Shown piece after piece: positions 19,438-47,552 of a stretch of DNA of 55,000 nucleotides; the first letter of the stretch is position 1; each line of letters starts with the position of its first letter. Location: positions 1 through 55,000 of the forward strand of contig JANWYH010000001.1 in NCBI GenBank assembly GCA_025054715.1. Direction: 5' to 3'. A model generated the notes under the pieces. It saw only the letters and a list, made by a program, of their open reading frames with translations. It made no database searches and had not been told where the DNA came from. This DNA is from Pyrinomonadaceae bacterium (GTDB taxonomy: Bacteria > Acidobacteriota > Blastocatellia > Pyrinomonadales > Pyrinomonadaceae). The position numbers and the translations under genes were made by a program.

Positions 19438-19518
19438 CTTTTAAATTAAGCAAAGGGAAGATTTAGGCAATAAACAAAGAATACAAACAAAGAAGCCTGA
19501 GAGAGATGAAACAGATTT

Positions 19519-19847
19519 TACTGAAAAGTCTTAGCAAGAATCCATTGACTCAAGAGCTCGTAAGCTGAAGGAGAGCAAGGCATGGGCGGGATGCAGAAAA
19601 GATGGCGAGTTTGCTTAAGGTAGCCCTTAGCTTTCCTGTTCTTGAGGGATATTTTGTGATAGGTTTTTCTTTAGTAGGGAAACGTTTAGCAGATTGGAAT
19701 TAGCAAAAAAATTAGTTCCTGCCAATGCAGGGACTATGGCTGACCTTAATACCGCCAGTCAGGGAGAGGTCAGCTTAAAAATGGCGGAATACAAATACCC
19801 TGACCTAAAGTGTAGTAGCATTCGAGCACTTTAGTTAACTAGAGGAG
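19519..19847 (+). ncRNA. structured RNA element, copy A, upstream of the SOD gene
   Basis: No ORF fits this gap (19438-19847). From about 19519 to the Shine-Dalgarno it aligns with 46663-47002. Helices seen: TTAAGG/CCTTAG around a TAGC loop (about 19615-19630); a 10-bp hairpin 19713-19722 with 19727-19736; and P2, GCTGACCT (19739-19746) with AGGTCAGC (19767-19774). The P2 loop holds CCGCCA (19752-19757) and GTCAGGG (19758-19764), complementary to TGGCGG (19782-19787) and CCCTGAC (19798-19804). A final 8-bp hairpin pairs 19805-19812 with 19827-19834. Helices differ from copy B by compensatory changes. A cis-regulatory leader is the best inference; a separate small RNA is possible. The preceding 80 nt (19438-19518) are purine-rich with no gene. 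Confidence 0.7.
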
Positions 19848-20537
19848 ATGAAAAGACGAGAAGCTATAACTTCGATTTTAACTTTAGGAGCAGGCGCTTT
19901 GGCTACTGGTTCTGGAATTTTTAAGGCAGAAGCTCGAGAGGTTCAAACTACTTATAAATTTAGCACTTACACACCTTTGACATATAATTTCGATGGTCTT
20001 AAGGGTCTCGACAAAGACATGCTCGAACAACATTACGCGCTTTATCGTGGTTACGTAAACAACACGAACAAGGCTCAATCAATAATGGCTGAGATGCTTG
20101 CTGCTGGAAAAGCTGATACTACGGAATTTTCTGAAGTTCGTCGCCGCCTTGGTTTTGAATATGCAGGAATGCGATTGCATGAATACTATTTCGGTATGCT
20201 AAAACCTGAAGGCTCACCCGTTGACGAAAAACTAAAAAGGGCGGTCTCAGCTTTTTGGGGAAGCTGGGAGAACTGGATTGCCGACATTACGAGAACTGCA
20301 ATGATGCGCGGTATCGGTTGGGCAATTTTATACTATGATCCTGTTACTAAGGGGTTGCAGAATTTCTGGATTGATGATCATGAAAACGGCAATCCACCAG
20401 GATTTGAGCCTATTTTTGTTTTGGACGTTTGGGAACATGCATACATCAAACAATTTGGCGCTGGCGGGCGTCGTGCATACATTGATGCTCTTTTGAAAAA
20501 CGTAGATTGGTCAGTGATAGCCAAAAGATTGCCTTGA
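19848..20537 (+). CDS. exported Fe/Mn superoxide dismutase
   Basis: 229 residues. A twin-arginine-like leader (MKRREAITSILTLGAGALA) indicates export to the periplasm. Metal ligands are His62 (LEQHYALYRGY), His111 (RLHEYYFG), and Asp193 and His197 (FVLDVWEHAYIKQFG), with the ENWIAD and FWGSW blocks of the family. The second-shell HH pair after the first ligand in classical SODs is replaced by YR and one residue is missing, so Tyr69 would serve as the gateway tyrosine. This start is fixed by the signal peptide, although AGAGGAG abuts the ATG with no spacer, which is unusual. It is preceded by structured RNA copy A. Confidence 0.88.
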   Translation: MKRREAITSILTLGAGALATGSGIFKAEAREVQTTYKFSTYTPLTYNFDGLKGLDKDMLEQHYALYRGYVNNTNKAQSIMAEMLAAGKADTTEFSEVRRRLGFEYAGMRLHEYYFGMLKPEGSPVDEKLKRAVSAFWGSWENWIADITRTAMMRGIGWAILYYDPVTKGLQNFWIDDHENGNPPGFEPIFVLDVWEHAYIKQFGAGGRRAYIDALLKNVDWSVIAKRLP

Positions 20538-46414: not shown

Positions 46415-46662
46415 ATTGGAAGAAGGGGATAGAAAAAACTCGAGAAGAAGCTGCAACGGATTGGTTTTAGCTCAAGAGTGGATATGATACTACCGAGCAA
46501 AAGAATAGGGTAAGAGAGGTCTGAAAACTGTGTGGAATTACCAAGAAATCAAGAGCGTATGAACTGTGCTACGGCGAAGTTAAAGGGAGAGAAAGAAAGA
46601 CACAAAGAAAGGTTGAAAAAAGACAGTGATGCATACAAGCGAAAGCCCGTAAAGTTGTAACC

Positions 46663-47002
46663 TACTGAAAAGCCTTAGGTAATTCATTGGCTCGGGAGTT
46701 TGCGAGACGAAGAGAAGGAGCAAGCGATGAATGGAGAACAAAAAGAATGGCAGGTTGATAAGGTAGCCTTTACCTTTCCTATTTCTAGTAAGTTTTTCAT
46801 CCCTGATAGGTTTTTCAACGGAGATTTCTTTTTTCTAAAATGGTTAAAGGGAATTAGGATAGGATGGTAGCTCTTGTGCTTGGTGCAAGGGTTACGACTA
46901 ACCCTAATGCCGCCAGTCAGGGAAGGGTTAGCTTGAAAATGGCGGGATATAAATTACCCTGACTTAAACTGTAGTAGTCTTAAAACTTTATTTAACCAGG
47001 AG
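46663..47002 (+). ncRNA. structured RNA element, copy B, upstream of the TlpA lipoprotein gene
   Basis: Homologous to copy A at 19519-19847 from a shared TACTGAAAAG...TTAG box to the Shine-Dalgarno. Helices: TAAGG/CTTTA around TAGC (about 46759-46772); CCTAT/ATAGG (about 46778-46809); a 10-bp hairpin 46867-46876 with 46886-46895; and P2, CTAACCCT (46898-46905) with AGGGTTAG (46924-46931). The P2 loop holds CCGCCA (46910-46915) and GTCAGGG (46916-46922), complementary to TGGCGG (46940-46945) and CCCTGAC (46957-46963). GTAGTAG (46971-46977) is also conserved. The preceding 248 nt (46415-46662) are purine-rich with no gene and may be part of a longer transcript. Confidence 0.7.
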
Positions 47003-47009
47003 TTTGACA

Positions 47010-47552
47010 ATGAAAAAATTAGCCTTGATTTTCATGGTCTTTTTTGTTTTTAGCTGTTCCACGAAAAATTCTATCAACGATAAATCTTTGAGTAGAAAGG
47101 GTGAGTATCCTTCTTTGCCGGAAGTCATTTTAAATGCGGGACATAGGGGACTGGAAGGACAAACCATCAGGCTCGCTGACTATAGAGGAAACGTCGTTCT
47201 CGTGAACTTGTGGGCTACGTGGTGCGGTCCTTGTCGAAAAGAGATACCTGTTTTGGTTGAGTTACAAGAAAGATACAAAGATGATGGATTGGTTGTTGTT
47301 GGGCTTGACGTTGATGAAAGTGAAAGCAAGGAATTAATAGAGGATTTTGCAAGACAGATGAAGATAAACTACACGTTGGGTTGGATCGATGCTAAAAGTC
47401 AGAAAGAATTTCTAAAACTGAGTCGCTTCGAGGGAGTTCCACAGTCATTTTTAATAGGACGTGAAGGAGAACTTATGGCAATTTTTACCGGTGGAAGTGC
47501 GGAAACGATTTCAAAACTTGAAGACTTCGTTGGAAGGGCGGTTCGGGAATAA
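47010..47552 (+). CDS. TlpA/ResA-like thioredoxin lipoprotein
   Basis: 180 residues from ATG 47010, with AGGAG 7 nt upstream; a TTG at 47004 is less likely. A lipoprotein signal ([16 protein letters not shown]) anchors it in the envelope. The thioredoxin domain has the redox pair [21 protein letters not shown] and the cis-Pro loop [10 protein letters not shown]. Such proteins reduce periplasmic disulfides, for example during cytochrome c maturation. RNA copy B precedes it, and the ABC ATPase gene follows after 2 nt. Confidence 0.92.

Follow-up and report, generated by a model that had tools for sequence, protein, structure and literature searches.

TnpB-only elements rely on TnpA in trans, and MITEs or orphan IS200/IS605-type ends are protein-less, multi-copy sequences that retain their ends. 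The TnpB reRNA of ISDra2 derives from the 3' end of tnpB together with the right end and takes its guide from the flanking DNA, and the motif TTGAT flanks the left end of the element (PMC8612924). We analyzed a window of 55,000 nucleotides, meaning the whole stretch presented above, in which one ORF-free sequence (copy A) very probably represents the right end of a miniature element that derives from an IS200/IS605-like (TnpB-type) transposon and encodes no protein. It resembles MITEs or orphan IS200/IS605-type ends in being protein-less and multi-copy, and departs from them in that all copies lie at the Shine-Dalgarno (SD) sequences of host genes. The likeness to the ISDra2 reRNA is one of architecture only, the left-flank motif being GAGG in Thermus relatives of our element rather than TTGAT; the predicted scaffold here is also longer, the genome appears to lack TnpB, and the guide function is putative. 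The nearest systems are the TnpB-related (TIGR01766) IS200/IS605-like elements of Thermus plasmids (pVV8 60677-62263 and pTT27 of HB27). With these the copies share right-end structures P_A, P_B and P_C plus terminal hairpins, a right end whose last bases are AGG, and a tnpB C-terminal tail that overlaps the RNA. The copies differ from them in lacking the tnpB core, in being AT-rich and in having an additional pseudoknot module, P1-P2-P3.

Copy A, the right-end (reRNA/omegaRNA-type) part of such an element, occupies positions 19518..19845 of the forward strand, an assignment made from its 12-copy family and its phage and Thermus homology. The right boundary and SD (TTAACTAG / AGGAG) fall at 19835..19847 (+), with the junction placed to within a few bases; relatives terminate in CCAGG or YAGG. 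The ATG at 19848 opens an exported Fe/Mn superoxide dismutase-like (SOD) host gene (19848..20537, +, from the ORF list). Copy B, the right-end part of the same element family, was delimited at 46662..46999 (+) by genome search, alignment and covariance model, and terminates in TTTAACCAGG. By eye only, a possible left end of copy B lies near 46613. The SD AGGAG at 46998-47002 serves the next gene, which encodes a TlpA/thioredoxin-like lipoprotein (47010..47552, +). Copies A and B are 66% identical over 385 columns, and the similarity to a locus 27 kb away that an earlier note had described, with its listed blocks, holds over the full length.

The blastn program identified nine copies in the 2.45-Mb genome, including both in the window. 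L024 and L025 came from a covariance model of the 3' core and the decayed copy L056 from a second such model, for a total of 12. The earlier note had copy A end at the SD of the SOD gene; 12/12 copies terminate at the SD of a same-strand gene. The downstream genes, named by reading their translations, encode SOD, a TlpA-like protein, a small membrane protein, GroEL, an MBL-fold protein, COX IV, a small ORF before NAD kinase, an amino-acid permease, a xanthine dehydrogenase FAD subunit, a LysM protein, PGAM and a secreted protein. L025 and L056 are among several decayed copies, and L024 is a deep paralog that retains the module. L003 and L006 are 95% identical overall and have diverged in their terminal hairpin loops and right boundaries, a pattern that suggests recent movement followed by local change. 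Because two of the 12 copies are this similar, the family appears to have spread recently. The genome has another groES-groEL operon (L035, G000:C11:87150-87700), which is without the element. A sigma-70-like promoter (TTGAC or TTGATG, 17 nt, TATxxT) was seen by eye 5' of the structured part in L002, L007 and L056, so the element may carry its own promoter.

The RNA fold was predicted from nine copies with RNAalifold, which gave two long hairpins (P_A and P_B), a hairpin P_C, a helix P1 and a terminal hairpin. In copy A, where all of these lie on the forward strand, P_A spans 19528..19621, with arms at 19528-19537 and 19610-19621 and a variable loop between them. The long-range helix P_B (19623..19712) has arms near 19623-19636 and 19690-19712; it is weakened in copy A and shows compensatory pairs in sister copies. 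P_C (TAGTTCCTGC / GCAGGGACTA, 19713..19736) is kept in L054, L064 and Thermus, relatives that are described below. P1 (19738..19775) pairs 19738-19746 with 19767-19775, and its loop contains the 5' arms of P2 and P3. P2 (19752..19787) pairs CCGCC at 19752-19756 with GGCGG at 19783-19787, while P3 (19758..19804) pairs GTCAGGG at 19758-19764 with CCCTGAC at 19798-19804. P2 and P3, two helices additional to those from RNAalifold, cross P1 and one another, making a pseudoknot. The terminal hairpin (19805..19834; CTAAAGTG at 19805-19812 with CACTTTAG at 19827-19834) adjoins the right boundary.

Under the structure formed by these helices 94% of cells pair, compared with 34-48% when it is slid, and changes on both sides were found at 7 pairs. 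Both sides changed in 4/8 pairs of P1, for which the L024 version reads GACAAGCC/GGCTTGTC, and one pair of P3 occurs as GC, CG, AU and GU. P2 is near-invariant across copies and hence lies outside the covariation test. The distant copy L024 has compensatory changes in P1, P3 and the terminal hairpin; the MAFFT alignment sets its terminal hairpin one column off, so the count of both-side changes there is too low. The terminal hairpin is compensatory in Thermus also. The earlier note was thus right to see a structured, duplicated RNA matching no known family, and the Rfam search that it had proposed gave nothing relevant at gathering or permissive thresholds. Single-sequence folds contained P_A, P_B and P_C-type hairpins in Thermus, L064, L066 and L054; phage folds recovered P_A, P_B and P_C, and the terminal hairpin appeared in folds of the Thermus elements. 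The P1-P2-P3 module was absent from the folds of the Thermus, L064, L066 and L054 relatives and is therefore a trait of this genome's lineage of the element. As judged from predicted folds, a pseudoknotted module of ~70 nt preceding the terminal hairpin is new relative to Thermus.

A pattern derived from P_C led to the phage contig L064. Two phage contigs and many Thermus plasmids have the same 3' structure fused to a gene for a TnpB-related protein (TIGR01766), the relatives with 37-44% identity being on Thermus plasmids. The L064 frame at 3-950 scored 66.5 bits against TIGR01766 (cut-off 32) and has RuvC-like motifs, and the C-terminal tail of this protein is encoded by the same RNA-like 3' end. 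A profile built solely from the phage and Thermus TnpB proteins had one match in the genome, copy L008 (E=1.7e-7), at C-terminal positions 408-513. The RNA therefore corresponds to the 3' part of tnpB together with the right end, and in L064, L066, Thermus and L008 the tail frame overlaps the predicted fold. The earlier note had reported no ORF in either copy; none is intact over A or B, and yet several sister copies have kept the C-terminal tnpB reading frame open. Six copies share one open frame, with 141/134/151 substitutions at the three codon positions, and this even spread marks it as a relic rather than a maintained protein. A region that was a decayed protein gene was what the earlier note had set against its own reading, and in part this is the case, as the stretch overlaps the 3' end of an ancestral tnpB-like gene. 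Pfam and NCBIfam gave nothing for the open frame alone. In L007 an open frame (1316-1873) crosses the entire element, continues into the permease gene that follows, and is either a tnpB relic or chance; a candidate N-terminal TnpB remnant in the same copy was not significant.

The protein machinery was not found in this genome. Searches of the genome, which is 99% complete, yielded no RuvC-core match to the phage/Thermus TnpB profile, no TnpB Zn-ribbon (PF07282), no Y1 transposase (PF01797) and no reverse transcriptase. A TnpB-family RuvC protein is present in the relatives L064 and Thermus; none was found here, and the copies are therefore filed as derivatives, not complete elements. With neither TnpB core, Zn-ribbon nor Y1 transposase found in the genome, mobility is taken to be historical. 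An IscB/HEARO origin was also considered: there was no gathering-threshold Rfam match, no HEARO for copy A up to E=10, and the downstream genes are host genes. The earlier statement that no transposase, reverse transcriptase or IscB/TnpB gene lies beside either copy was correct, yet the sequence itself is a tnpB-type transposon end.

Eight orthologous gene starts were compared with a same-genus genome, and none had the insert. The groES-groEL spacer is 34 nt there and 357 nt here. The element was absent from the seven further starts, the SOD ortholog also being without it, and spacers in three further shared operons are 17-48 nt in the same-genus genome versus 394-598 nt here. The R2 model matched none of 118 further genomes from the family, and a phylum sample of 396 genomes gave just two weak matches, L054 and L055. 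L054 is real, its alignment to L008 scoring 11.5 s.d. above shuffles; it abuts the stop codon of an antisense gene (StbA/ParM-like) rather than a ribosome-binding site. L055 was rejected as a family member and looks like a chance AT-rich match. DNA searches of plasmids and phages gave no match, and a pattern scan of genome contigs gave a single match, in a Rhizobium record, which was dismissed as chance.

The insertion target was examined in Thermus, where the element spans TGCAAACAG to GACCAGG. The left end is T[GA]CAAACAG, directly preceded by GAGG in 14/15 loci and by GGAGG in 10, and the right end is [GA]CCAGG or AACCAGG wherever it was found. For two Thermus copies the joined flanks match intact DUF523/DUF1722 and VWA genes over 220/220 bases (100% and 99.5%). 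Insertion is thus 3' of GAGG with no duplication, and the right-end AGG is the element's own. The T. oshimai copy lies between AGAGAGGAGGAGG and TCAGGTG, at the SD of a YgiT gene, and places a new AGG 4 nt before the start codon, the same configuration as in this genome. The target looks like the SD consensus, with the right end supplying a new AGG. In L080 (T. parvatiensis pTP143) and L084 (T. thermophilus pHC11), Thermus left ends follow GGGGAGG/GGGAGG; neither locus has an annotated TnpB gene or, within the fetched stretch, a matching right end, and both are possible protein-less relics in Thermus too. A limited literature search, which is weak evidence, found no prior report of an SD-type target for TnpB elements.

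The GAGG target is established in Thermus only, and the left ends in this genome are too decayed to prove an insertion motif. The left-end consensus was clearly above shuffles only in L004, L006 and L007, a circular result in that the consensus was drawn from these copies. In L006, the sole copy with an obvious AGAGG flank, AAAAAGAGG precedes the left-end consensus; B, L005, L025 and L056 have similar left flanks by eye only. The copies probably sit at gene starts at least in part because of an SD-like insertion target. GGAGG is not confined to SDs: of the 4 non-coding GGAGG sites in the window, 2 precede an ORF start by 3-14 nt. An SD-like target alone thus leaves 12/12 unexplained, and either selection or a longer target must contribute; a likely second factor is that harmful insertions elsewhere were lost.

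The following scheme would account for these results. In intact relatives, the 3' end of tnpB and the right end would be transcribed as a scaffold RNA of ~250-300 nt (reRNA/omegaRNA type), with the flanking DNA as its putative guide; we know of no RNA-guided activity for this TnpB subgroup. In the past, the element may have been moved in trans by a Y1 transposase, landing at SDs, and SD targeting in this lineage would put copies at gene starts. Because the element brings an AGG in its right end, the gene behind it would still have a usable SD after insertion beside an SD, and the insertion would be tolerated. The folded end may have been retained because transposition and/or TnpB required folding. 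Since neither a TnpB core nor a Y1 transposase was found in the genome, the copies are now probably immobile, and their RNA probably runs as 5' UTR or intercistronic mRNA.

The earlier note had proposed a new cis-regulatory RNA class. A riboswitch or thermosensor acting through the SD of a stress regulon (SOD, GroEL, thioredoxin, rhodanese/MBL and others) would suit copies that all terminate at an SD, a fold kept with compensatory changes, and several stress or redox targets. However, the targets also include amino-acid permease, COX IV and PGAM, and such an RNA should be kept at orthologous genes across species, whereas the same-genus sites are empty and the wider sampling yielded nothing in 118 family genomes and two weak matches among 396. 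The empty sites and the homology to the 3' end of phage and Thermus TnpB-related transposons largely refute this class, and we consider it very unlikely. A retroelement or ribozyme (group I or II intron-like) inserted at SDs would explain the precise 3' end and variable 5' ends, yet the genome has no reverse transcriptase, copy A has no Rfam intron match even at a permissive threshold, and the sequence is already explained by TnpB homology; its probability is negligible.

An exapted reRNA is somewhat less improbable than the cis-regulatory class, though still unlikely. The former transposon end would now be a host 5' leader, or the copies would supply guide RNAs for TldR-like regulation, the partner TnpB-like protein being encoded elsewhere or missing from the assembly. 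Protein-less copies do retain structure, the equal substitutions over codon positions in six copies place the constraint elsewhere than on a protein, and the module persists in the deep paralog L024. Against this, the genome lacks any RuvC-core match, several copies (L025, L056) are decayed, and conservation is equally expected if folded ends were needed for transposition. The best reading remains that the copies are parasitic orphan reRNA-type right ends. The family is a real multi-copy structured RNA, of a known kind (TnpB-type right ends) and in a variant placed at ribosome-binding sites.

These copies show how a mobile element can spread through operons and do little apparent harm, as it seems to target the ribosome-binding site and to restore one with its own right end. 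They add orphan scaffolds with an extra pseudoknot module, and a TnpB-type lineage whose SD-consensus-like flanking motif (GAGG/GGAGG) is a prediction for the TAM. They also call for caution: when an RNA occurs in duplicate ahead of unrelated genes, it can be a transposon end and not a riboswitch. It is unlikely that SD-targeting orphan TnpB guide-RNA ends have been adopted as structured 5' leaders or trans-acting guide RNAs; if they have, this bacterium would possess a transposon-built set of post-transcriptionally controlled genes.
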